A stretch of DNA of 64,000 nucleotides from Marinobacter sp. MDS2 (lineage in GTDB: Bacteria > Pseudomonadota > Gammaproteobacteria > Pseudomonadales > Oleiphilaceae): assembly GCF_030718085.1 (NCBI RefSeq), contig NZ_JAVAJF010000001.1:1860001-1924000 (forward strand), given 5' to 3'. Each line of letters opens with the position of its first letter. Within the stretch, counting starts at the first letter, position 1. Both the position numbers and the translations under genes were made by a program. The notes beneath the pieces were generated by a model that searched no databases, had not been told where the DNA came from, and was given only the letters and a program-made list of their open reading frames with translations. This document shows, piece by piece, positions 1 through 36,540 of the stretch.

Positions 1-906
1 GCCAAGCTGATCACCGGTGAAGATGTGGTGATCAAGGTGCAGAAACCGGGTGTGGAAAACATTCTGCTGACCGATCTGAATTTCCTGTACCTGTCCGCCC
101 GTATTCTGGAAACTCTGGCGCCCAAGTTGTCCTGGACTTCTCTGTCCGGGATCGTGGATGAAATCCAGAAAACCATGATGGAAGAATGTGATTTCATCAA
201 GGAAGCCAACAACTTGAAAGTATTCCGGGAATTCCTGGAAAGCACCGGCAACGAAGACGCCACAGTACCCCGTGTGTACGAGCACGGCAGCAGTCGCCGG
301 ATTCTGACGATGGAACGTTTTTACGGTGTACCGTTAACGGATCTGGAGAGCATTCGTGGTTATGCCAAAGATCCGGAACGCACCCTGATCACGGCCATGA
401 ACACCTGGTTCTCGAGCTTGACCCAGTGTGAGTTTTTCCACGCGGACGTACACGCAGGAAACCTGATGGTGTTGAAAGACGGCCGGGTTGGGTTTATTGA
501 TTTCGGTATTGTTGGCCGAATCAAACCAGACACTTGGCAAGCGGTGAGCGATTTTATTTCCGCGATTATGGTGGGTAACTTCGAAGGCATGGCCGATGCC
601 ATGATTCGGATTGGTATTACCCATCGGGAAGTACAGGTTCAGGATCTGGCCGCGGACCTTCAGCGTTTGTACAAGCAGATGGACCGTATGGTGCCGGATG
701 AAAGCGCTTATCTGATGGACCAGGCCGAAGACGACGTAAACCACATATTGATGGATATGGTCAAAGTCGGCGAAAATCATGGCTTGCACTTCCCTCGGGA
801 GTTCGCGCTGTTGCTGAAGCAGTTCCTCTATTTCGACCGCTATGTTCACATCATGGCACCGGAAATGGATGTGTTTATGGATGATCGGCTAACCATGCTG
901 CATTAA
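1..906 (+). CDS. ABC1/AarF-type atypical kinase, 5' partial
   Basis: The reading frame is already open at base 1, so the N-terminal part lies outside the window. The visible 301 residues begin in the ATP-binding region (VVIKVQKPGV) and contain the kinase-like catalytic loop HADVHAGN (near base 439) and the metal-binding DFG (near base 499). These mark the ABC1/AarF/UbiB family, whose best-known members support ubiquinone synthesis. The protein ends about 30 residues after the kinase core, at a TAA at 904-906, without the C-terminal membrane helices of canonical UbiB. It is therefore probably a UbiB-like paralogue rather than UbiB itself. A strong terminator follows, separating it from recF. 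The family call is firm; the substrate is unknown. Confidence 0.85.
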   Translation, partial: AKLITGEDVVIKVQKPGVENILLTDLNFLYLSARILETLAPKLSWTSLSGIVDEIQKTMMEECDFIKEANNLKVFREFLESTGNEDATVPRVYEHGSSRRILTMERFYGVPLTDLESIRGYAKDPERTLITAMNTWFSSLTQCEFFHADVHAGNLMVLKDGRVGFIDFGIVGRIKPDTWQAVSDFISAIMVGNFEGMADAMIRIGITHREVQVQDLAADLQRLYKQMDRMVPDESAYLMDQAEDDVNHILMDMVKVGENHGLHFPREFALLLKQFLYFDRYVHIMAPEMDVFMDDRLTMLH

Positions 907-936
907 CGAGCGAAGAAGCATAGCTTCTTGTACACT

Positions 937-976
937 AAGGCAATGCTGGTGATCAGCATTGCCTTTTGTTTTTTTA
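937..976 (+). terminator. Rho-independent terminator after ABC1 kinase gene
   Basis: A perfect 12-bp stem (937-948 with 954-965, arm AAGGCAATGCTG) and a 5-base loop are followed by a T-rich run interrupted by one G. It ends transcription from the kinase gene 40 bp upstream of recF, so recF probably needs its own promoter or some read-through. Confidence 0.85.
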
Positions 977-1016
977 AGGCTTCAAGTTTCCATCTGATAT
1001 TGAGATTCCCTCCTCT

Positions 1017-2144
1017 ATGGCGCTTGTGAAACTCCAGACTCAGTGGTTTCGAAATCTGGAGCCTGAACCGATTTGGTTCTCCCCTTCTTTTAATCTGCTC
1101 TACGGTGCCAACGGCAGCGGAAAGTCTAGTGTCCTTGAAGCCATCGGGTATTTGGGGCTTGGCCGTTCCTTTCGCATCTCCCGGCATCAGGCTGTGGTTT
1201 CTCACGGACAGAACAAACTCACGGTGTTCGGTGCCTTGGACGCAGGACTCGATGAACATGGAGATGAAGGTGCTGGAGCGGTGGAGCATCGTGTTGGTAT
1301 CTCGCGCGACATTGTCTCGAAAGAAACCTCATTGCGAGTAAATGGCGAAGCGGTTCGTAGCTTATCGTCGTTGGCGAAACGGCTACCGGTTTCGGTTATT
1401 GATCCGGGGGTTTTCGATATTGTTGCGGGAGGCCCGGGTAAGCGCCGGCAGTTTCTCGATTGGTTAGTGTTCCACGTGGAACCTTCGTTTTCATCTATAT
1501 GGCAACAATGTCAGAGAGTGACATCACAGCGGAATCAAACGCTCAGAAATGGTAGAATCGATGAGTCGTTGATGAGGGTATGGGATAATCAGTTTTCCGT
1601 GCTTGCTGAATCCCTCAGCGACACCAGAGCCGCGGTTTTCCACAGCTTTAAAAGTGCCTTTGATGAAGTGCTCAAAGAGCTGGATGCAGGATGGACCGAA
1701 GGCCTTAAGCTCGAGTTTTATCCGGGCTGGGATCGTAGTCATTCTTTAGTGGATGTACTGAAGAATCATCGCGAACAAGAACGCCGAATGGGGCATACCC
1801 TTTATGGCCCAAACCGCGCTGATATTCGCCTGAAAATGGGCGGTCGTCCGGTGGCAGAAACTTTCTCCCGCGGACAACAAAAGACCCTGGTCATTCTGAT
1901 GAAGATTGCCCAAGGCAAGGTTTTGAGTGACTTGGGTAAACAGGTCACTTTTTTACTGGACGATATTAATGCCGAGCTGGATGTCCGTCATCGGATCATG
2001 TTGGCCCGGAAACTCCAGGATTTACGTTGCCAGGTGTTTATTACGTCCATCGAACATCCGGAACCGGACGTGTTGTGGACGGATGGACAAGCGCCAGAAT
2101 ACAGAATGTTCCACGTGGAACATGGAAAATTGACGGAAGAATAA
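1017..2144 (+). CDS. recF: DNA replication and repair protein RecF
   Basis: RecF is an SMC-like ATPase that, with RecO and RecR, loads RecA at gapped DNA and stalled forks. The 375-residue protein has the N-terminal Walker A GANGSGKSS (residues 31-39) and the region after it (VLEAIGYLGLGRSFR) typical of RecF. Near the C-terminus it has the ABC-type signature FSRGQQKTL and the Walker B segment VTFLLDDINAELD. Length is normal (E. coli 357). The ATG at 1017 lacks a good Shine-Dalgarno sequence, but the N-terminus aligns with known RecF proteins. gyrB follows 75 bp downstream, the usual origin-proximal order. What is odd is upstream: an ABC1 kinase gene with a terminator sits where dnaN would be expected. 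Confidence 0.96.
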   Translation: MALVKLQTQWFRNLEPEPIWFSPSFNLLYGANGSGKSSVLEAIGYLGLGRSFRISRHQAVVSHGQNKLTVFGALDAGLDEHGDEGAGAVEHRVGISRDIVSKETSLRVNGEAVRSLSSLAKRLPVSVIDPGVFDIVAGGPGKRRQFLDWLVFHVEPSFSSIWQQCQRVTSQRNQTLRNGRIDESLMRVWDNQFSVLAESLSDTRAAVFHSFKSAFDEVLKELDAGWTEGLKLEFYPGWDRSHSLVDVLKNHREQERRMGHTLYGPNRADIRLKMGGRPVAETFSRGQQKTLVILMKIAQGKVLSDLGKQVTFLLDDINAELDVRHRIMLARKLQDLRCQVFITSIEHPEPDVLWTDGQAPEYRMFHVEHGKLTEE

Positions 2145-2183
2145 ACTGGGTAAGATTGCAGCAGATCCTTTTCGTACTGCTGA

Positions 2184-4634
<2,451 letters not shown>

Positions 4635-18615: not shown

Positions 18616-18703
18616 ACCAGTGTTATCTTGATTCCGGAAAATGGGTCAGGGTGACAGGTTACCCCAAACCCGAGTTGGTTTCGTCAGGCAGGATATCCCT
18701 TTA

Positions 18704-20404
18704 ATGCGACAAGTGCGGTCGTATCCAAAAACAGCGGATCTCGAGAACCCGCTGTACTACCTGGAAAACATGAACACCTTGGTTGATTGGGTGGCCGAAC
18801 ACCACGGCGACCTGCTGACCGAAGGCGAGCGCGCCCGGCTGGAAAGTTTTCGCCAGCTGCCGTTAGCGGCGCGAGCTTTATTAACCCGAATGGTTATGCG
18901 CAGCGGTGAATTGTTTCGTGTGGATAAGTTGAATTACCCGGAACTGCCGCAGCCGGAAACCGAAGCCGTGGCCGAGCTGCTCGATCAGCAATGGCTGGAC
19001 CCTGCCCCGTTGCTCGGCCTAGACGAAGTGTTCCGGTTGTTTACGCTGGCGGAATTGCGGCTGTTGTACGGGGATTGGCTGGCGCACAACGGTTTGCCCA
19101 AAAACCTGCCCAAAGCCCGGTTACGAGAGGCGCTTGCTGACGCGGAGTCTGAACCGAAACCGGTTGATCGATGGTTCGATCAATCTGTGCCGCAGGTGGT
19201 GCAAGTACAGGGCATGGCTTTGTTCGATCGTATTCGGCTGATGTTCTTCGGCAACCTGCGCCAAAGCTGGACCGACTTCGTGCTGGTAGAGCTGGGCGTG
19301 CAGCAATTTGAAACTGTGCCTTTTACCCCCGAATCCCGGGCCTTTCAGCATCGGGCCGAAGTAGACAGTTACCTGCAAATGCATCAGTGCCGGGAGCGCT
19401 TGGATGCCGGCGAGGCGGCTGACGAGGTTTGGGCGGCTATTCCCGACCCTGTGGATAACTCGTGGCTGACCAGCCGCCGGAACCGGCTGTTGTTGGAACT
19501 GGGCCGACAGGCCGAGCGGCAGGATAATTCGGAATTAGCCTTGCAGGCTTGGGCCGCCAGTGGGCACCGGGAAGCCAGGCTTAAGCAGTTACGATTGCTG
19601 GAGCGTTTGAAGCGGTTTGAGGAGGCGTGGGACATTGCCAGTCAGTGGCAGAACGGTGAACTGAGCGATGCCGAGGCCCAGGGGCTGGAGCGCATTCTGA
19701 AACGGCTGGCACCGAAAGTGGGCGAGCCGAAACCTCAGCCGCCGCCTAAACGGTTGATTCGGGAGTTCACGGTTACTCTACCGAAACCTGATACCGGCTC
19801 GGTCGAACACGCGGCTGTGGCGTATCTCAGTACCGAAAGTGCTCCGGTGTTCTATGTGGAAAACACCCTGATCAACGCCCTGTTCGGCTTACTGTGTTGG
19901 CCGGTGATCTTCAAACCCATCGCCGGCGCCTTCTTCCACCCGTTCCACATCGGCCCGGCGGATCTGACCCGGGACGATTTTGTTGCCCGCCGACAAGCGG
20001 ATTTCGACCAGTGCTTTGCCTGGCTGGAAACCGGAGCCTATCGACAGCGAATCTTTGAAACCTACAAAGCAAAACAGGGCATTGCGAACCCGTTTGTCGC
20101 CTGGCCGGTGATCACCGAAGAGTTGTTGGCCTTGGCGATGGATTGTATACCCGCGCAGCATCTCAGGGTGTTGTTTGATCGATTGCTGACCAACGTAAAA
20201 GAACATCGCAGCGGTTTCCCCGATTTGATTCGTTTTATCCCCAACGCGGAAGCGCCCGAGCACCGGTATGAAATGATCGAAGTGAAAGGCCCTGGCGACC
20301 GGTTGCAGGATCACCAGCGCCGCTGGCTCGCCTTTTTTGACCAGCACGGTATCCCGGCCAGTGTGTGCTATGTGCGATGGCAAGACACCGGGAATCATTC
20401 ATGA
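18704..20404 (+). CDS. FAN1-like VRR-NUC domain nuclease
   Basis: About 566 residues. The N-terminus (ENPLYYLENMNTLVDWV) and the central helical region match bacterial homologues of FAN1, a structure-specific nuclease that unhooks DNA interstrand crosslinks. The C-terminal 90 residues form the VRR-NUC domain with the metal-binding motif PDL...EMIEVKGPGDRLQDHQ and a final W of the usual pattern. The frame is open from 18641, but I prefer the ATG at 18704, with AGGA ten bases upstream; the earlier ATG has no proper ribosome site. Its stop overlaps the next gene's start (ATGA), so the two proteins are probably made together. It holds DnaA boxes at 18919 and 19450. Confidence 0.88.
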   Translation: MRQVRSYPKTADLENPLYYLENMNTLVDWVAEHHGDLLTEGERARLESFRQLPLAARALLTRMVMRSGELFRVDKLNYPELPQPETEAVAELLDQQWLDPAPLLGLDEVFRLFTLAELRLLYGDWLAHNGLPKNLPKARLREALADAESEPKPVDRWFDQSVPQVVQVQGMALFDRIRLMFFGNLRQSWTDFVLVELGVQQFETVPFTPESRAFQHRAEVDSYLQMHQCRERLDAGEAADEVWAAIPDPVDNSWLTSRRNRLLLELGRQAERQDNSELALQAWAASGHREARLKQLRLLERLKRFEEAWDIASQWQNGELSDAEAQGLERILKRLAPKVGEPKPQPPPKRLIREFTVTLPKPDTGSVEHAAVAYLSTESAPVFYVENTLINALFGLLCWPVIFKPIAGAFFHPFHIGPADLTRDDFVARRQADFDQCFAWLETGAYRQRIFETYKAKQGIANPFVAWPVITEELLALAMDCIPAQHLRVLFDRLLTNVKEHRSGFPDLIRFIPNAEAPEHRYEMIEVKGPGDRLQDHQRRWLAFFDQHGIPASVCYVRWQDTGNHS

Positions 20405-22656
20405 AAGTAGCCGTGCGAACCCTGTGCGAGTTTGCTGCCCGCCACGGAGATCTGGACTTCCGCTACACCCCGGCGCCCAGCGCGGAGGAAGGCATTGCGG
20501 GCCACCAGGCGATTCAGGATAACCGCGGCTACGGCTACAAGAGCGAATACTCACTTACTGGTAACTGCCTGGGATTAGAGCTTTCTGGAAGAGCAGACGG
20601 TTATAACCCGCACAACGACCGGCTGGAAGAAATCAAAACCCACCGGGGTGATGTGTCGCGTATTCGCGAGCACCAACGGGCGCTGCATCGAGCGCAATTA
20701 CGAGCCTATGGAGCACTATTATGCCGACAGGAACAGCGCAAAAAGCTGGAGTTGGCACTGGTCTATTTCGACATTGGCAAGAGCAAAGAAACCACACAAG
20801 TGGAAACCGCCGGTGCTGATGAGCTGTGGCAAGAACTGGAAGCTCTTTGTTCGATCTATAAAGCCTGGGCCGAGCAGGAAGAACATCACCGGGAACAGCG
20901 CAATGCCCTGCTGGCCGAGTTGACCTTCCCGTTCCCGGACTTTCGCCCGCGCCAGCGGCAACTGGCGGAAACCGTGTATAAGAATGCCGCGAAAGGTGAA
21001 ACGCTGTTGCTGGAGGCACCCACCGGGTTGGGTAAAACCTTGGGCACCTTGTTCCCGGCCTTGATGGCGATGCCCGCGGCCGGGCAGGATCGGTTGTTCT
21101 ACCTCACCTGCCGCAACACCGCCCGGCAACTGGCGCTGGACGCTGTGGATAAGTTGCGTTCGGCCCAAGACCCACTGCAGCCATGGCCGCTGCGCACGTT
21201 AGAACTGGTGTCGAAAGACGACGCTTGTGAACACCCGGACAAAGCCTGTCACGGCGAGTCTTGCCCCTTGGCAAAAGGCTTTTTCGACCGGCTGCCCGAT
21301 GCACGAGCTGAAGCTGTTCAAAGCAAAAGCGCGCTGACTCAAGAAGTTTTACAGAAGATCGCGTCAGGTCATGACATTTGCCCGTATTTCCTGGCTCAGG
21401 AAATGGCCCGCTGGAGCGATCTGGTGATCGGCGATGTGAACCGGATGTTCGACCAGTCTGCGCTGCTCCACGGCTTGGTTCGCCAAAACAATTGGCGAGC
21501 CAGTGTGCTGGTGGACGAAGCCCATAACCTGGTGGACCGTGGCCGGGGCATGTACTCGGTACGTTTGGACCAGCAGCGTTTGTTGAAGGTTAAGAAAACC
21601 GCGCCGAAACCGCTGAAGTCGGCTTTGGACCGAACCGCTCGCGCGTGGCAAAGCCTGATTCGCGATCACGGTGAGCAAAGCCAGCCGGTGTTTCTGACTA
21701 CCCTGCCCTCGCAGTTATTAGGGGCCTTGCAGGCGATGGTATCCACAATCACCGATTACCTCGCCGACAACCCGCCGGACCTGCCGTTACAAGAAGTGAT
21801 GTTTGACAGCGTGGCTTTTATGAAGCTGGCAGACAGTTTCGGCGACCACTCACTGTGTGAATTTCAGCGCAGCGGCCGGGGAAGAGCCAGCTTAACGCTG
21901 CAGAACCTGATTCCGGCCGATTACCTTCGCGAACGCTTTGCCGCTGCCCACTCGGTTCTGCTCTTCTCGGCCACCCTGAGCCCCGGCGTGTACTACCGGG
22001 ACCTGCTGGGTATGACCGAAGCAACCCGCTTTACCTCTCTAGCCAGCCCGTTCAGTGCCGAACAACTGCAGGTGAACTTCACCCCCGGCATCAGTACCCG
22101 ACAGGTGCACCGGGAAGCGTCGTTGGAACCCATAGCGGAGGTGATTGCCAGCCAGTTCCGGCAACGCCCGGGCCATTATCTGGCGTTCTTCAGTAGCTTT
22201 AAATACGCTAAGGAAGCCAGTGAAACGTTGGCGGCCCAAGCGCCGGATATCCCCCAGCGCAGCCAGCGGCCCGGCATGACCCCGGAGCAGCGGCGTGAGT
22301 TTCTGGCTGAATTCCAGCAGCCCAATGGCAGCGTGGCGTTCGCGGTATTAGGCGGGGTCTTCAGCGAAGGCATTGATCTGCCGGGGGACCAGTTGATCGG
22401 TGCCTTCGTCGCCACCTTGGGCCTGCCGCCCTTCGATGCCTGGCACGAAATCCTGAAAACCCGGCTACAGCAGCGGTTTGGTAACGGCTACGAATACACC
22501 TACCTCTTTCCCGGCTTACAGAAAGTCGCGCAAGCGGCGGGACGGGTTATACGAACACCGGACGACCAAGGGGTGATCTGGCTCATTGATGACCGATTCC
22601 TAAAGCCATCGGTCAATCGGTTGCTGCCGGGTTGGTGGTTCCCGGAACCTCGTTAA
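20401..22656 (+). CDS. Rad3/DinG-type helicase with N-terminal PD-(D/E)XK nuclease
   Basis: 751 residues. The N-terminal 160 residues show a RecB/Cas4-type nuclease pattern: Asp66 in GRADG, Glu77-x-Lys79 in EEIKT, and Gln99-x3-Tyr103. The rest is an XPD/Rad3-like SF2 helicase: Walker A APTGLGKT (206-213), DEAH at 372-375, and four cysteines (276, 283, 288, 327) spaced as the iron-sulfur cluster of this family. The C-terminal half has GGVFSEGIDLPG and a QAAGRVIR motif. E. coli DinG and YoaA lack a nuclease domain of this kind. It overlaps the FAN1-like gene by four bases, suggesting joint repair of crosslinks or forks. The ATG at 20401 is chosen for this overlap. Confidence 0.88.
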   Translation: MKVAVRTLCEFAARHGDLDFRYTPAPSAEEGIAGHQAIQDNRGYGYKSEYSLTGNCLGLELSGRADGYNPHNDRLEEIKTHRGDVSRIREHQRALHRAQLRAYGALLCRQEQRKKLELALVYFDIGKSKETTQVETAGADELWQELEALCSIYKAWAEQEEHHREQRNALLAELTFPFPDFRPRQRQLAETVYKNAAKGETLLLEAPTGLGKTLGTLFPALMAMPAAGQDRLFYLTCRNTARQLALDAVDKLRSAQDPLQPWPLRTLELVSKDDACEHPDKACHGESCPLAKGFFDRLPDARAEAVQSKSALTQEVLQKIASGHDICPYFLAQEMARWSDLVIGDVNRMFDQSALLHGLVRQNNWRASVLVDEAHNLVDRGRGMYSVRLDQQRLLKVKKTAPKPLKSALDRTARAWQSLIRDHGEQSQPVFLTTLPSQLLGALQAMVSTITDYLADNPPDLPLQEVMFDSVAFMKLADSFGDHSLCEFQRSGRGRASLTLQNLIPADYLRERFAAAHSVLLFSATLSPGVYYRDLLGMTEATRFTSLASPFSAEQLQVNFTPGISTRQVHREASLEPIAEVIASQFRQRPGHYLAFFSSFKYAKEASETLAAQAPDIPQRSQRPGMTPEQRREFLAEFQQPNGSVAFAVLGGVFSEGIDLPGDQLIGAFVATLGLPPFDAWHEILKTRLQQRFGNGYEYTYLFPGLQKVAQAAGRVIRTPDDQGVIWLIDDRFLKPSVNRLLPGWWFPEPR

Positions 22657-24935: not shown

Positions 24936-27125
24936 TTACTCGATTACGCACATAAATTCACCCACTACTCGATATTGATGTGCATTGTCTTCGTTCAGTT
25001 CAAGCGTTTCGAAGTTTTGATCGTATGAGTTCGGCTTTAATTGAATCCGCTTATGGAGCCAGCCGTGTGCGTTTTCAGTTTTAAAGCTTTCGTAGACTTT
25101 TACTGTGTAGCGCGAACCGAAGTCAGCGTCGATGCTGTCTGTGCATTCCACCAAAACGGTTTTGCCATTTCGGCTACCACCGCGATCGGGGCGGAACAGG
25201 CATAAAGTACCATTAGGGATAACCCGATTCATTGATTCGCCGATCACCCGGCAGGCAAACATTCCTTCCCGTACTTGAATGCCGCTGGGTACGGCTACCC
25301 AATCTTTGCCCTGTGCGTTCTGTAGGTCGCTGAATGTGCCTGCAGCTGCTTGTAGATCAAACAAGGGCACAGCATTGACGTAGGGCTTGAGGTCCACCAC
25401 TTCTGAGGCTCTATTTTCTACTTGGTTGGGAGTGCGAAGAGGGATGTGTTGTTTGAGATATTCCCGAAGCGCCTTATCACAGGCATAAACGAAGGTGCCG
25501 CGAATTCCCCGAAGCATGATGGTTCGGTAGATATTGATGATGTATTGCTTCAGTTCCTCCGGGTCTTTAATGCCCTGACCACCGGTGCGGTCGAAATAAT
25601 TGGTCTTATCGATGACGATGGACTGGGTCTCCGTATCGAAACGGATCTCTTCTCCGAATATGATGCCGGCGTAGTTTAGGTCGTAGCCCTGTGTCGTGTG
25701 GATGCATCCGACTTCGTTGTGAGAGCCTTCTTTATTAATCCAGTCGGTATTGGTGCTGTTCCAGCGAAGCTGAACGCCATCGACAACAATGTCATACGCT
25801 GTGCTGTCCTTTTTCGAGATCCAGGGCCATGAATAGCCGGCGATCAACCGGGATAGACCGACCTTTGTTTCTTTCTCGTTGATGGCCTGCACCATATCGC
25901 CGAGAGATTCGAACACCTCGAATTCATAGTTGTTGGCTCGGAAGACTTCCTCTTCTCCAACACGTCCGTTGAGCAGATTATCAACAAACTCAACGTATGG
26001 CTGACCGGCCTTTACACGGAACTGAGAGAGTAGCGAGTGCTTCACTGAATCCTTGGCAGCTTTAAGGCGCAGAAAAACTTCCGTATCGGCGTCCGAAGGC
26101 TTGATCGATTGCCCTTGGTCATAGAAGAAAATGGCTTTTGCAGATTGCTGGCATACCCAATCAACTTCGCTGCAGCTGTGTTTGTCCATACTCAATGCAG
26201 CACAGGTTTTGTCAAAGCTGCCAAAGTAGGCTCCAAGGTTTTTGCGCTTTCGCAAGCGATGGGATTCGTCCACCAACACGATGTCGTAGTGCTGTTTCGC
26301 GAGTTCAGATGGGCTGATCACCATGCTGGGACTGAGGCCTGAGACGTGTTTGAAGGCCTTCTTCAGTGTGGTTCGGAAGGATGTCATCGGCACTACCAGG
26401 GCCATTTTCGGCTTGGGAGTAGCTTTTCGTAATTTGGCAAGTAAAGACTGAATTTCTGCTTCGTCTTCGGAAAAATCTCGAAGATCAACGTGATGATTTT
26501 CTGAGAGAAGCAGTTTGAATAGAAATATCGCCAAGACGGATTTTCCGGTACCTGCACCACCTTCAATAACGATGTTTTTAACACCAGGGTTTAGCAGTTC
26601 ATGCATGATGGTAAGCAGCCCCTGACGCTGATCGAACGACAGCGATTTATAGGGGGAATATTTGAACACATCGGAATTATCGAGGTGATCCAGAGTACGG
26701 GATACCACTCCTTTGGCGATCAAGCGATTCCAAACTTCTCGGAATACTTCGTTGTAGAGCGCGTCACGTTGGTAATAGTTGTGATCGGCGAGCCCGAGAT
26801 TGCCGTTCAGCAGAGTGTATTTGCCATCTGCTGCCATATACTTAATGAGCAGTGATTCAACGTCCAGCGTAGCCGATTTGTTGAAGTATTCACTGGTGAT
26901 CAGGTGGACAGCTGTTAGCAGTTGTTTTTCGTCGTGTTTCAGGTGGGTGCTCATGCGGGTGAGCGTGTCTGTGGTTTCGCCGATGTAAGCACGTCGGTGT
27001 TTTTCATCACTTAGGACGTAAACCAAGGGCCAGCTATCCGCTGCAAAAGCGTTGCTACGTAACTCGCTGATAGCGTCTTTGTTGAATGGGTAACGCTGTA
27101 CTTCTACCATCGACGATTGACTCAT
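24936..27125 (-). CDS. GIY-YIG / DUF2075 helicase-like / S24 peptidase fusion
   Basis: 729 residues in three parts. Residues 32-110 look like a GIY-YIG nuclease: VYVL, YIGET (47-51), Arg57, His61, Glu90 and LLNGN. Residues 180-560 are a DUF2075 P-loop domain: Walker [10 protein letters not shown] (189-197), LVDESH (284-289), IHTTQGYDL and [12 protein letters not shown]. Residues 585-729 resemble a LexA/S24 peptidase: an Ala595-Gly596 bond in AAAG, Ser631 in GESM and Lys676 in YTVKVY. It overlaps the MazG-like gene by four bases. Two sampled 60-base lines (24961 and 26401) each have 25 G/C, clearly below neighbouring genes, so transfer is likely. Function is unknown; a defence or stress role is inference. 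Confidence 0.82.
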
Positions 27126-27442
27126 AGCTCCGTGTATTTTTTGGCCGTTCCTTTAGCCTTGCTAACGGGGTACTTCTGTTCGTTCTTGGTAATCTTGTCG
27201 AGGACGATTTGTTCCAGATTAAGGTCGTAGCTGTCGGCCAGCAACAGGGCATAGGCAACAACATCGGCCAGTTCCTCTTTCACTTTCTCTACATTGGCTT
27301 GTTCGGGAGATTTCCAGAGAAACAGTTCCAACAACTCTGAAGCCTCAATACTCAGAGCCAGTGATAAATCTTTTGGGTTATGGAATTGTTTCCAATCTCT
27401 GTCGTCACGGAATCGACGTAGCCGGGCCAGTGCTTCTTTCAT
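27122..27442 (-). CDS. MazG-like nucleotide pyrophosphohydrolase
   Basis: 106 residues, all-alpha. The pattern [13 protein letters not shown] followed by [19 protein letters not shown] gives the two metal-binding acidic motifs (ExxE and ExxD) of MazG-like and dCTPase-type NTP pyrophosphohydrolases, which convert (d)NTPs to (d)NMP and pyrophosphate. The ATG at 27442 is preceded by AAGGAGG six bases away, a very strong ribosome site. The frame continues upstream through tRNA-Pro, but that part is not coding. It is the first gene of a two-gene unit; its stop overlaps the ATG of the DUF2075 fusion. Low G+C like its partner. It starts 138 bp past the 3' end of tRNA-Pro. Confidence 0.85.
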
Positions 27443-27579
27443 AAACGCCCTCCTTTCTGTTCTGATTAAAGATAATTGCCAGAACATTAGCAGACTTACG
27501 AAAGATACAGAAATGCTAACCCGAAAAGGGCTGTGGAGTGATAAAAACGAGGGAGAAGAACAACAGAAAAGCGGGAAAG

Positions 27580-27656
<77 letters not shown>

Positions 27657-27659
27657 ATC

Positions 27660-27691
27660 AACGGCCGGTATTATACGGATTACCGGCCGTT
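27660..27691 (-). promoter_or_regulatory. Inverted repeat with -10 box upstream of tRNA-Pro
   Basis: An 11-bp perfect inverted repeat (27660-27670 and 27681-27691, AACGGCCGGTA) surrounds a minus-strand TATAAT at 27675-27670. That is 14 bases before the mature tRNA 5' end, a typical distance for a tRNA promoter. No clear -35 box is seen. The stem could also act as a weak end for glyS transcripts, but it lacks a T-run on the minus strand. Confidence 0.45.
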
Positions 27692-27744
27692 TTGCTAGCC
27701 CCTTCCCTGGGGAAATACCTACTTAAAACTGCGCGTTAGCCTGT

Positions 27745-29826
27745 TTACCCGGCGGTGGGTAGCAGGGAAATATCGGCAACGCGCAGGAACAGGTTGCGAA
27801 GACGGTTGAGCAGCGCCAAACGGTTGTTTTTAACCGCTTCATCATCTGCCATCACCATCACTTCGTCGAAGAAGTTATCCACAGGCTCGCGCAGGCTTGC
27901 CAAGGAAGTCAGAGCGGTGGCGTAGTCGCCTTGCTCGAACAACGGCAACACTTTCGCGGCTTGCTCTTCGACTTTCTGGGCCAGAACCTTCTCGGGCTCA
28001 TCCTGTAGCAACGCGTTGTCGACGGTTTCGCCGATGCTGTCGCCGCCTTGCTTGGTCAGGATGTTCGATACCCGCTTATTGGCGCCGGCCAACGCCAATG
28101 CTTCGGGCAGCTGGCGGAACGCTTCAACAGCTTTCACCCGGCGATTGAAGTCCAGCGGGCAGGTCGGGCGACGGGCGTGCACGGCCAGATAGACTTCGGC
28201 ACTGATGCCCTGCTCGTCGTAGAAAGCCCGGAAGCGTTCGAGCATGTAGTTGACCACGGTGCTGGCGGTGTTCTCTTCGGTCAGCACTGAGAAGTTCTCT
28301 TCCGCCCATTCACACAGGGTCTGCAGATCCAGCGGCAGTTCGCGCTCGATGATGATGCGCAGCACACCGAGGGAGGCACGGCGCAGGGCGAACGGGTCAC
28401 GGGTTCCGGACGGCGGCTGGTTGATGCCAAACAGGCCGACCAGTGAATCGATACGGTCTGCAATGGCAACGGTGCAACCGGTCAGCGTAGTGGGCAGGTC
28501 GTCACCGGCGAAGCGGGGCATGTACTGCTCGTTCAGGGCCTTGGCCACGTCGGCGTGCTCGCCATCGTCGGTGGCGTAGTAGCTGCCCATGATGCCTTGC
28601 AGGTCGGTGAACTCCAGCACCATTTCAGTAACCAGATCGGTCTTGGCTAACATGGCGGCGCGCTCGGCCAGGGCTGGGTCACTGTCGATGGCTTCGGCGA
28701 TCTTTTTGGCCAGTGCAGCAACACGTACGGACTTGTCGTAAATGCTGCCCAGCTTTTCCTGGAACACGATGGGCTTGAGCGCATCGATACGTTCTTCAAG
28801 CTTGGTTTTGCAGTCGGTTTCAAAGAAGAAGGCGGCGTCTGACAGGCGCGGGCGAATGACTTTCTCGTTACCGGCAACGACCTGAGCCGGATCTTTACTT
28901 TCCAGGTTGGCGACGGTGATGAACAACGGCAGCATCTGGTCGTTGCTGTCGACCACGTGGAAGTATTTCTGATGCTCCTTCATGGAGGAAATCAGGGCTT
29001 CGGCAGGCACTTTCAGGAAGCGCTCGTCGAAACGGCCCATCAACGGCACCGGCCATTCGTTCAGGGCGGTGACTTCGTCCAGCAGATCTTCGTCAATGAC
29101 GGCAACCCCACCGGCTTCGTTCTTGGCCAGTGCGTTTACGCCAGCCCGAATCTGCTCACGACGCTCGGCGAAATCAGCCAATACGTAACCTTCTTGCTTG
29201 AGCACGGTTTCGTAGTCGGCCGGAGTCGGGATGATCAGTTCTTTCGGGCAGTGGAAGCGGTGGCCACGGGTTTTGTTGCCCGGCTTCAGGTTCATGATCG
29301 GGGTGTCGATCACGTTGTTGCCGTACAGCATGATCAGCCAATGCACCGGGCGCACGAATTCGGTGCGGTGGGCACCCCAGCGCATGCGCTTGGGAATCGG
29401 CAAGGCCGACAGAGACTGGTTGATCAGTTCGGGCAGCAGTTCCACCGTGGGCTTGCCCTTTTCAACGGTACGGAACACCAGCCAGGCACCTTTGTCGGTT
29501 TCCAGCGTGTCCAGTTGATCGGGGGTAATGCCCAATGAGGTGGCAAAGCCGGTCAGAGCGCGGGTCGGGTTGCCGGCATCGTCAAAAGCGGCTTTGACCG
29601 CGGGACCGCGTTTTTCCACAGACTTGTCGGGCTGGGCATCGGCGAGATCCCGGATGCGCACGGCCAAACGGCGTGGCGCCGCGAAGGCTTCAACGGCGCC
29701 AAAGGCAACGCCAGCGTCTTCAAGGCCTTTGGTGATGCCTTGGGTGAAGGCATCAGACAGGCCTTTGAGGGCTTTCGGAGGCAGTTCCTCGGTGCCCAGT
29801 TCGACTAGAAAATCCTGTGTAGCCAT
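27745..29826 (-). CDS. glyS: Glycyl-tRNA synthetase beta subunit
   Basis: The large subunit of the alpha2-beta2 bacterial glycyl-tRNA synthetase, responsible mainly for tRNA binding. The 693 residues (E. coli 689) begin FLVELGTEELPPKAL, the classic GlyS start, and include WGAHRTEFVRPVHW, YEMVLEFTDLQGIMG-type segment (LVTEMVLEFTDLQG) and DPFALRRASLGVLRI. The C-terminal region with DNFFDEVMVMADD resembles the anticodon-binding domain. Its ATG overlaps the glyQ stop (TAATG). One DnaA box (27875-27883) lies inside, encoding Val-Asp-Asn. Confidence 0.97.
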   Translation of the reverse strand: MATQDFLVELGTEELPPKALKGLSDAFTQGITKGLEDAGVAFGAVEAFAAPRRLAVRIRDLADAQPDKSVEKRGPAVKAAFDDAGNPTRALTGFATSLGITPDQLDTLETDKGAWLVFRTVEKGKPTVELLPELINQSLSALPIPKRMRWGAHRTEFVRPVHWLIMLYGNNVIDTPIMNLKPGNKTRGHRFHCPKELIIPTPADYETVLKQEGYVLADFAERREQIRAGVNALAKNEAGGVAVIDEDLLDEVTALNEWPVPLMGRFDERFLKVPAEALISSMKEHQKYFHVVDSNDQMLPLFITVANLESKDPAQVVAGNEKVIRPRLSDAAFFFETDCKTKLEERIDALKPIVFQEKLGSIYDKSVRVAALAKKIAEAIDSDPALAERAAMLAKTDLVTEMVLEFTDLQGIMGSYYATDDGEHADVAKALNEQYMPRFAGDDLPTTLTGCTVAIADRIDSLVGLFGINQPPSGTRDPFALRRASLGVLRIIIERELPLDLQTLCEWAEENFSVLTEENTASTVVNYMLERFRAFYDEQGISAEVYLAVHARRPTCPLDFNRRVKAVEAFRQLPEALALAGANKRVSNILTKQGGDSIGETVDNALLQDEPEKVLAQKVEEQAAKVLPLFEQGDYATALTSLASLREPVDNFFDEVMVMADDEAVKNNRLALLNRLRNLFLRVADISLLPTAG

Positions 29827-34723: not shown

Positions 34724-35227
34724 TCAGGCGCTCTGCTTGTGGAGTTTTTCCAGCTTCTTGCGAATACGGTTGCGCTTGAGAGAGCTGAGGTAATCCACAA
34801 ACAACTTGCCGTTCAGGTGATCCATCTCGTGCTGGATGCAAACCGCGAGAAGGCCGGTGGCTTCCAGTTCAAAGTCTTCACCGTTCCGGTCTTTAGCCGT
34901 AATCCGGACATGTTCGATGCGTTTTACATCTTCGTAAAAACCGGGCACCGACAAGCAGCCTTCCTGCATGGCTTCCAGATCGCCATCCAGTACTTCCACT
35001 TTCGGGTTGATGAACACCCGCGGCTCGCTCTTGTCTTCGGACAAATCCATAACGATGATCTGCTTGTGCACGTTCACCTGTGTCGCGGCCAGGCCAATGC
35101 CGGGCGCATCGTACATGGTCTCGAACATGTCGTCGATCAACGTTCGGATCTCGTCGGTTACCTCGTCTACCGGCTTGGCAATGGTGCGAAGGCGCGGATC
35201 GGGGTACTCAAGAATATCTAGAATCAT
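34724..35227 (-). CDS. def: Peptide deformylase
   Basis: Def removes the N-formyl group from new proteins and is a metal (Fe2+) hydrolase. All three family motifs are present in this 167-residue protein: [18 protein letters not shown] (metal-binding Cys) and QHEMDHLNG (the HExxH zinc/iron site). It is the first gene of the def-fmt-rsmB-trkA group, divergent from the LysM gene. Confidence 0.97.
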
Positions 35228-35526
35228 AGTGCTCTGGCTTCTCTGAAATGCGACAGCGTACTGCGCAAATTTTCTTCACAAATCTATTATGAAGCATGTG
35301 TGATGAGGGTATTATCCGATAAATTACCGATTGAGTACAAACTGATCAGTTAATAGTAGGATTCTATCGATTATTCTGCAGAATTTACTGGAAGAACAAA
35401 AGATAACATCACAAATCCCTATACATCTTCTATAGTAACGGGAATAACAGTGTAACAAGCTGCGGGTGATCTGTGGTGACGTTACCGAACGCTAAGATTC
35501 AAGGCACGCGATCAAGGATACAGACG
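35228..35526. other. AT-rich divergent intergenic region
   Basis: 299 bp between the divergent def and LysM genes, clearly richer in A/T than its surroundings. It must hold both promoters. Several candidate -10 hexamers occur (for example TATAGT near 35431), but none has a convincing -35 partner. No RNA gene or hairpin element was recognised. Confidence 0.5.
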
Positions 35527-36540
35527 ATGAGGAAATTGTTGTACGCTCTGGCGGCTACCATGCTGCTATTTACCTCTTGGGCCCAGGCACAACCCGAGTT
35601 CAAAGCTGATCATCCTGAGCGTTACACCGTCGTCAAAGGGGATACCCTTTGGGACATTTCAGGGCGTTTTTTGAACAACCCTTGGTACTGGCCGGAAATC
35701 TGGCACGTTAACCCACAGGTAGCCAACCCTCACCTGATATACCCGGGCGATCGTCTGGCGCTGGTTTACATTGATGGTAAGCCGCGCATCACCAAGGTTG
35801 CGTCCGGCGATGTGAAACTGTCTCCCCAGATCCGTTCCGAAGCCATTGATACGCCGATTCCCGCGATTCCACTGGATGCGATTGCCAGCTTCCTGACCGA
35901 CACCCGCATCGTCAGCCCTGAAGAAATCAACGGTGCGCCTTATGTGCTGGAAGGCGAAGACGGCCGGATCATCACCGGTGCGGGTGACAAGATCTATGCC
36001 CGTGGTGAAAAGCCTGCAGATCGGGTGGGCGTGTTCCGCCGCAGCCAGGAATTTGTTGATCCGGATACCGGGGAGTTTCTGGGGCTGGAAGCGCGCAGCA
36101 TCGCTCGAGGTAACGTGGCGGCCGAGAACGGCGACGTGTTGACCGTTAACCTGACCCGCTCCAGCGAAGAAGTGCGCATTGGCGACCGCTTGTTGGTGAG
36201 CGAAGATCGCCGTTTGACCACCAACTTTATGCCCAGCTCGCCTGATGAGGAGATCGAAGGCAAGATGATCTCGGTCGATGGCGGTGTGAACCAGATTGGT
36301 CAGTACAATGTGGTGGCCATTAACCGCGGCGCCCGTGAAGGCATGAAAGCCGGTAACGTGCTGGCGGTGATGAAAGCTGGCAACCGTGTTCGTGACCCGA
36401 TCACCGGTGAGACCATTGAGCTGCCTTCCGAGCGGGCCGGTTTGCTGATGGTATTCCAGGTGTATGAAAAGATGAGCTACGGGTTGGTTCTTAAAGCAAC
36501 CCGTTCGTTGTCGGTGGGTGACAAGGTCGTTAACCCCTGA
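35527..36540 (+). CDS. Secreted LysM domain protein
   Basis: 337 residues starting at the ATG at 35527, with AAGGA eight bases upstream. A signal peptide (RKLLYALAATMLLFTSWAQA) with cleavage after AQA sends it to the periplasm. A LysM peptidoglycan-binding domain covers residues 33-79 (YTVVKGDTLWDIS ... LIYPGDRLAL). The remaining 250 residues have no catalytic motif that I recognise. In related bacteria a LysM protein commonly sits between def and dprA; the role is probably in cell wall binding. Confidence 0.9.
   Translation: MRKLLYALAATMLLFTSWAQAQPEFKADHPERYTVVKGDTLWDISGRFLNNPWYWPEIWHVNPQVANPHLIYPGDRLALVYIDGKPRITKVASGDVKLSPQIRSEAIDTPIPAIPLDAIASFLTDTRIVSPEEINGAPYVLEGEDGRIITGAGDKIYARGEKPADRVGVFRRSQEFVDPDTGEFLGLEARSIARGNVAAENGDVLTVNLTRSSEEVRIGDRLLVSEDRRLTTNFMPSSPDEEIEGKMISVDGGVNQIGQYNVVAINRGAREGMKAGNVLAVMKAGNRVRDPITGETIELPSERAGLLMVFQVYEKMSYGLVLKATRSLSVGDKVVNP

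Follow-up and report, generated by a model that had tools for sequence, protein, structure and literature searches.

What might a nucleotide pyrophosphohydrolase be doing beside a protein that combines a nuclease, a helicase and a LexA-type peptidase? The question is raised by two genes in a stretch of 64,000 nucleotides from Marinobacter sp. MDS2 (contig NZ_JAVAJF010000001.1, positions 1,860,001 to 1,924,000), here called the window. Both genes lie on the minus strand: the first (27122..27442) encodes a MazG-like, DCTPP1-type nucleotide pyrophosphohydrolase of 106 amino acids (aa), and the second (24936..27125) a protein of 729 aa with a GIY-YIG domain, an SLFN-g3 helicase and a LexA-type S24 tail. 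The stop of the 106-aa open reading frame (ORF) and the start of the 729-aa ORF share an ATGA overlap, so the two ORFs are present and translationally coupled as a preliminary description of the locus had stated. We found that the pair is a true conserved unit and that its LexA-type tail, a portable module, also occurs on several restriction-type enzymes with its cleavage residues conserved; the pair is an entry point to that broader finding.

The architecture of the large protein was read from Pfam matches, alignments and a fold comparison, which bear out the proposed fusion of GIY-YIG, DUF2075 and LexA-type peptidase domains in a single 729-aa protein. Residues 157–567 (25425..26657) form a superfamily 1 (SF1) helicase of the SLFN-g3 (formerly DUF2075) family, with a PF09848 score of 212.9 bits against a cut-off of 24 (E 1e-62), a Walker A motif GGAGTGKS and a Walker B motif DESH. 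In an alignment of 44 homologues that are 50–86 percent identical to the 729-aa protein (A2), G189–G192, G194, K195, D286, E287 and H289 of the helicase were invariant and T193 was conserved in at least 90 percent of the sequences; neither Ser196 nor Ser288 was. The label “Schlafen-related” that had been attached to the protein holds for this helicase and not for the rest, as no Pfam match to a Schlafen AlbA-type nuclease core was found in the large protein up to an E value of 1. The N-terminal GIY-YIG-like nuclease domain (about residues 30–110; 26796..27038) was assigned from alignment A2 and a Pfam score below the cut-off: Y36, Y47, G49, R57, H61 and E90 are invariant in A2, and we take the columns of Y36, Y47, R57 and E90 to be the catalytic Tyr, Tyr, Arg and Glu of GIY-YIG nucleases. 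The precomputed PF01541 label was present on 2 of the 120 large-protein homologues listed and on 100 of the 120 matches listed for the tail of an HNH nuclease described below.

The C-terminal tail (residues 575–729; 24939..25403) matched Peptidase_S24 at 26.0 bits against a cut-off of 23.3, and LexA as well as helicases were among the matches listed in the fold comparison of the large protein, where no GIY-YIG structure appeared. Its putative scissile bond, Ala595-Gly596 (25338..25343), and its putative catalytic residues, Ser631 (25233..25235) and Lys676 (25098..25100), were invariant both in A2 and in all 11 tails of a second alignment (A3), drawn from five known body types and one body cut by a contig end. 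Across the 360 homologues listed, the scissile Ala-Gly and the Ser-Lys dyad were kept in 349. The tail thus has the LexA fold together with the residues for self-cleavage. This conservation bears on the idea that the tail serves for dimerisation or for docking onto RecA and has lost cleavage. Dimerisation is likewise a property of the S24 domains in LexA and UmuD, which is in keeping with such a role, but docking alone would need neither the Ala-Gly bond nor the dyad, and we regard the idea as hardly probable.

The small protein has a Pfam MazG-like match (E 9e-19), so its family is as previously given. Its closest solved relatives, however, are the pyrophosphatase 4qgp and the dCTP pyrophosphatase DCTPP1/RS21-C6 (E 1e-19 to 3e-19), which corrects its finer identity to DCTPP1-type rather than MazG proper. 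The protein carries the ExxE...ExxD motif (E33, E36, E57 and D60), which we take to be the metal site of the all-alpha nucleoside triphosphate pyrophosphohydrolases (DCTPP1/MazG-like), and these four residues were kept in all 90 of the MazG-like ORFs that reach 90 aa at loci L001–L094, a set in which a few genomes are represented twice. DCTPP1-like enzymes clean nucleotide pools. Our guess is that this one would hydrolyse deoxycytidine triphosphate (dCTP), or a modified dCTP, and so starve phage replication.

To what extent do the two genes belong together? A profile built from 18 homologues was scanned against one genome per species for 84,980 species; 568 stretches matched and 555 of them encode a relative, and the counts on pair loci that follow refer to the best 80 of these 555. 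The 80 loci belong to Pseudomonadota (36: 25 Gammaproteobacteria, 10 Betaproteobacteria and one unplaced), Bacteroidota (43) and Fidelibacterota (1). A MazG-like ORF was directly upstream on the same strand in 79 of them, and in the sole locus without one (L064) the upstream sequence is just 218 bases long. The junction of the two ORFs was a 4-base overlap in 65 loci, a 1-base overlap in nine and abutting in two. At L053 the helicase ORF leaves the contig and the overlap with the MazG-like ORF follows from the match coordinates, at L080 a gap of 109 bases separates the called ORFs, and at L030 the small gene is split in two. Chance can be excluded, since 79 of the 80 best loci retain the pair and 5066 homologues of the large protein were found (E≤1e-3, among 7997 candidates scored). 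Rare co-conservation, which would have counted against the preliminary description, was therefore not what we observed; the MazG-like gene and the tailed SLFN-g3 gene stay together across three phyla.

A third component was not evident, as no neighbouring gene recurs in more than 7 of the 80 loci and several of the larger clusters of neighbours are flanks shared among Marinobacter. Genes that are helix-turn-helix (HTH)/IrrE-like and DUF4411/PIN-like, labelled by eye and from a Pfam tally of neighbours, were side by side downstream in 4 of the 80 loci (e.g., L048:12442-14162). No relatives of the large protein were found in viral contigs. Phage and plasmid cargo were considered as vehicles and set aside: four phage records and 39 plasmid records held distant matches to the large protein, and in no record did one place reach 80 percent coverage.

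Within the genus the pair is patchy. Matches were found in 13 of 97 genomes (the window's own and 96 relatives, 61 being of the genus with the own genome included), and the full-length GIY-type protein was present in 7 of the 61. A form of 34–38 percent identity, taken up below among the tailed bodies, occurred in five genomes, four of the genus and one (G095) of the order; G095 also has a second, weak match in a protein that resembles a phage repressor by eye. The match in a further genome (G008) is the tail on another protein.

Where the pair does occur in Marinobacter, it favors one site. In the window tRNA-Pro(CGG) (27580-27656, minus strand) lies 138 base pairs (bp) upstream of the MazG-like gene and marks the border of a variable site, so the adjacency reported earlier is correct. 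The low G+C content reported with it amounts to a modest dip, 0.486–0.504 in three 1-kilobase (kb) segments from 25001 to 28000 versus about 0.54–0.60 around them, with segments 1-3000 and 35001-36000 nearly as low (0.50–0.51). Among 30 glyS loci from the 61 genus genomes, in 26 of which ARAGORN located the tRNA, the pair was directly 3′ of tRNA-Pro in four (G000, G005, G013 and G018). Longer stretches from 20 congeners added G038, with the pair 125 bp from the tRNA, and G031, with the pair about 4.5 kb away and two genes between. Six of the seven GIY-type genomes therefore use the tRNA-Pro site, and in the seventh (G014) glyS is on another contig than the pair. The same 20 stretches had the pair in three (G018, G031 and G038), type I restriction genes in four (L153, L156, L164 and L169), the usual PLD-family flank directly after the tRNA in four (L159–L162, in L159 after one small gene) and other genes in nine. 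The distance from the tRNA to the start of the HsdR gene is about 100–120 bp in L156 and L169 and 4–5 kb in L153 and L164. All four loci had REase_I matches below 1e-190 with PADLOC; among the proteins scanned, L156 and L169 also had methylase and AbiLi-type ATPase matches, and L156 a specificity-subunit match. The contents of the site 3′ of tRNA-Pro(CGG) beside glyS thus vary within the genus, and some species have type I restriction genes and AbiLi/AriA-like ATPases there. Over the 80 pair loci, 11 were within 1 kb of a tRNA, whereas random placement within these loci gave 5.6 percent; the 11 represent about five independent sites, because six are Marinobacter loci at tRNA-Pro and two share a tRNA-Leu.

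The preliminary description had also named enrichment in defence islands as a check. We compared 118 near and 114 far neighbouring proteins with PADLOC (E≤1e-10) and Pfam, counting families rather than genes, and obtained 178 near versus 112 far PADLOC families. Among the matches listed, near neighbours included the candidate models PDC-S05 (up to four proteins) and PDC-S23 (three), and far neighbours GajB, MzaB, a DRT helicase, SoFic and a type III methylase (one protein each). Pfam listed RhuM (3), IrrE-type (3), dCMP deaminase (3), Fic (2) and AIPR (1) near, and McrBC (1) far. By these family tallies defence genes show no clear difference between near and far neighbours, and what stands in this respect is that, in the genus, the tRNA-Pro site is common to the pair and type I restriction genes. 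The window also holds a probable VRR-NUC/FAN1-like gene adjoining a DinG-like helicase gene (18641-22656), whose orthologues are probably among the far neighbours (VRR_NUC 2, FAN1_HTH 2, DinG model 1 match).

The lack of a clear difference between near and far neighbours would suit a pair that served the host in DNA repair or nucleotide sanitation, as would the pool-cleaning activity of DCTPP1-like enzymes, the occurrence of GIY-YIG nucleases and SF1 helicases in repair, and the LexA/RecA theme of the tail. A housekeeping role of this kind is difficult to reconcile with a pair that is patchy in its genus and spread over three phyla, that shares its tRNA site with type I genes and whose tail is common to restriction enzymes, and we consider it quite improbable. 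The pair is a real, conserved and mobile two-gene module whose function is probably defence.

How far does the tail extend beyond the pair? With the window tail as query, 9 of 369 genomes of the class had matches, which lay in open frames 142–1235 aa long; a tail profile had matches in 5 of 398 genomes of the phylum, and those that were read are all in SLFN-g3 proteins. The bodies that carry the tail are the GIY-YIG/SLFN-g3 protein, an SLFN-g3 helicase of 793–797 aa, type I HsdR, an HNH_4 nuclease (L141) and, at L134, a 1981-aa MrfA-like DEAD/MZB helicase, which has an Eco57I-type methylase and a NERD helicase as neighbours. HsdR was identified by Pfam at L142, and at L143 by its resemblance to L142 and an adjoining Pfam-positive HsdS. 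All six loci of the 793–797 aa form have a MazG-like ORF, which is downstream in L139 and upstream in the other five; none was found at L134, L141, L142 or L143. The N-terminus of this form has a D...ExK motif (D80, E98 and K100 in 6/6) and no Pfam match. A PD-(D/E)xK nuclease reading of that region was not adopted, as it had the motif only; the AlphaFold prediction there had a predicted local distance difference test (pLDDT) score of 34.5, and Pfam and PDB searches gave nothing useful. A 171-aa tailed ORF at L146 was likewise not accepted as a stand-alone form, since it starts 15 bases from a contig end and may be a cut piece.

A search with the HsdR tail of L142 returned 2290 proteins (E≤1e-3) among 3424 candidates of 648–2063 aa, and the 120 of these that were listed comprised 64 with PF18135, 55 HsdR and one MrfA-like protein, with tails 72–80 percent identical. 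We take PF18135 to be type ISP, as one source names its protein “type ISP restriction/modification enzyme”. The HNH tail returned 588 proteins; of the 120 listed, 119 had an SLFN-g3 label and one an HNH label. A tree of 89 tails had 12 changes of body type (the least possible being five, and starred branches forcing only one change per group), which suggests repeated swapping of the tail between HsdR and type ISP enzymes. The HsdR tail matched no phage record, and it matched the same single plasmid record as the window tail. The preliminary description was right about the LexA-type domain and missed the portability of the tail, which is the most informative part.

Several of the tailed genes have suggestive surroundings or forms. 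The tailed HNH nuclease (L141:9780-12402) is beside an IS30-type transposase-like gene by eye, and the cluster of Eco57I-type methylase, tailed MrfA-like helicase and NERD helicase (L134:4-15677) may be an unnamed restriction-like system. At L139:8167-19899 the MazG/SLFN-g3 variant shares an island with a recombinase-like gene and several short genes that are TIR-like by eye, and on a Halomonas megaplasmid (L174:5173-8106) variant helicase and tail are in two overlapping frames with a MazG-like gene downstream. Three proteins of 1817–1830 aa (P0205, P0225 and P0232) carry, together with S24, Pfam labels for type ISP, helicase and methylase and further labels of nuclease type.

Why would so many DNA-cutting enzymes carry such a tail? 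LexA cleaves itself at Ala84-Gly85 through a Ser-Lys dyad when triggered by RecA, according to PMC9578287 and PMC3834820, and cleaved LexA exposes latent ClpX signals, according to PMC10584840. When restriction of types IA and IB is alleviated after damage, ClpXP degrades HsdR, as PMC12707154 describes. The genome of MDS2 encodes both RecA and ClpX. We hypothesize, tentatively and at somewhat less than even confidence, that the tail is a RecA-triggered, self-cleaving fuse that shuts off DNA-cutting enzymes after damage, a form of built-in restriction alleviation. The SF1 motor would move the large protein along DNA and the GIY-YIG domain would cut it, while the coupled DCTPP1-like enzyme would hydrolyse a (deoxy)nucleotide triphosphate, possibly phage-modified dCTP. 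If the enzyme cut host DNA, or the host were otherwise damaged, RecA filaments would form on single-stranded DNA and the tail would cleave itself at Ala595-Gly596. This would leave a nuclease-helicase with the C-terminus ...AAA-COOH, LexA-like in its final ...AA-COOH, and the protein would then be removed, probably by ClpXP. On HsdR, type ISP, HNH and MrfA-like bodies the tail may have this role as well.

Cleavage could also work in the opposite direction, with the nuclease-helicase inactive until RecA filaments form and self-cleavage freeing an active nuclease, the outcome being abortive infection with nucleotide depletion by the MazG-like enzyme. UmuD is reported to be made active by the same kind of RecA-induced cleavage; a nucleotide pyrophosphohydrolase partner would fit an abortive programme, and the sequence data are the same for either direction. 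However, the residue ahead of the scissile alanine is of the LexA kind and not of the commoner UmuD kind, and the tail is also on HsdR and type ISP enzymes, which must act on incoming DNA before the SOS response. Because the tail is on such constitutive restriction enzymes, we favor an off-switch, and activation by cleavage appears unlikely.

Several observations weigh against the proposed fuse. The GIY-YIG domain of the large protein scored 20.7 bits with PF01541, below the cut-off of 22.6, and the tail profile had no match to PDB sequences at E≤0.01. Ala-Ala-Gly may be kept for the peptidase alone and not as a degron, and residue conservation in the match sets of the HsdR and HNH tails is biased because similarity of the tail was what defined these sets. 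At the tRNA-Pro site the three complete HsdRs lack the tail (that of L153 is cut by the contig end), and the family tallies of near and far neighbours are as noted above. Upstream of 33 proteobacterial loci, several of one genus, LexA boxes had 0 strict and four relaxed matches; transcriptional control by SOS was accordingly discarded and is not used as support here. Lastly, a fuse leaves the MazG-like enzyme unexplained. Since its gene was seen only beside tailed SLFN-g3 forms among the loci read, the enzyme is probably not part of the fuse.

If the fuse hypothesis is correct, the LexA-type tail lets a DNA-damage signal act directly on a nuclease. Cells that carry restriction systems must avoid cutting themselves when repair of damage makes unmodified DNA, and beyond types IA and IB the restraint of other nucleases seems, in our judgement, less clear. 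We consider it close to evenly balanced, leaning slightly against, that the portable tail is a general damage fuse through which RecA filaments switch restriction off (or on) outside transcriptional SOS control, on type I HsdR, type ISP, HNH and MrfA-like enzymes and SLFN-g3 nuclease-helicases alike. Such a fuse would link SOS, restriction and a defence-type MazG/helicase operon of three phyla, and the question can be reduced to a single point mutation, that of the catalytic serine.

How does the pair compare with systems already known? Its parts are known; the combination and its proposed control were not found described in the open-access literature, in which DUF2075 was not found together with GIY-YIG or MazG and DUF2075 papers were unrelated by title. 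Likewise, no description was found there of a LexA-type tail on restriction enzymes, and the main texts of PMC10853773, PMC12839542 and PMC11090510 do not contain LexA, S24 or UmuD. As that literature excludes preprints and most papers behind subscriptions, an earlier description may exist elsewhere. With the models of PADLOC 2023 there were partial matches to the helicase and GIY-YIG regions and none to the MazG-like protein; none of them covers the pair, in agreement with the earlier remark that the combination could not be named. As a candidate for an undescribed system the pair has gained from its patchy conservation as a unit, a tRNA site common to type I genes and a tail common to restriction enzymes, and has lost the Schlafen relationship beyond the helicase.

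Nhi and AbiO match the helicase region (E 7e-12 and 3e-11), but over residues 163–420 only, which leaves out the GIY-YIG domain and the S24 tail as well as the MazG-like partner; as PADLOC matches were partial, the identities Nhi, AbiO and PDC-S14 were rejected. Human SLFN11 and Schlafen group 3 differ from the window protein in the nuclease core. Tailless GIY-YIG/DUF2075 helicases of Bacillota have a similar nuclease-helicase body (25–33 percent identity in two read) but no S24 tail and, at these two loci, no MazG-like ORF. The small protein resembles DCTPP1/RS21-C6 in sequence (E 2.9e-19) and in its ExxE...ExxD residues, and differs in being the operon partner of a nuclease-helicase. The text of PMC12707154 has no occurrence of LexA or UmuD and does not mention a self-cleaving tail. 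The alleviation of EcoKI-type restriction by ClpXP that it describes is like the proposed outcome, in that the nuclease subunit is removed after damage, whereas the trigger of the tail would be built in and would be present on non-type I enzymes as well. With LexA, UmuD and phage CI the tail shares its fold, Ser-Lys dyad and scissile Ala-Gly; in those proteins the domain follows a DNA-binding domain or a short N-terminal arm, and here it is the C-terminus of nucleases and restriction enzymes.
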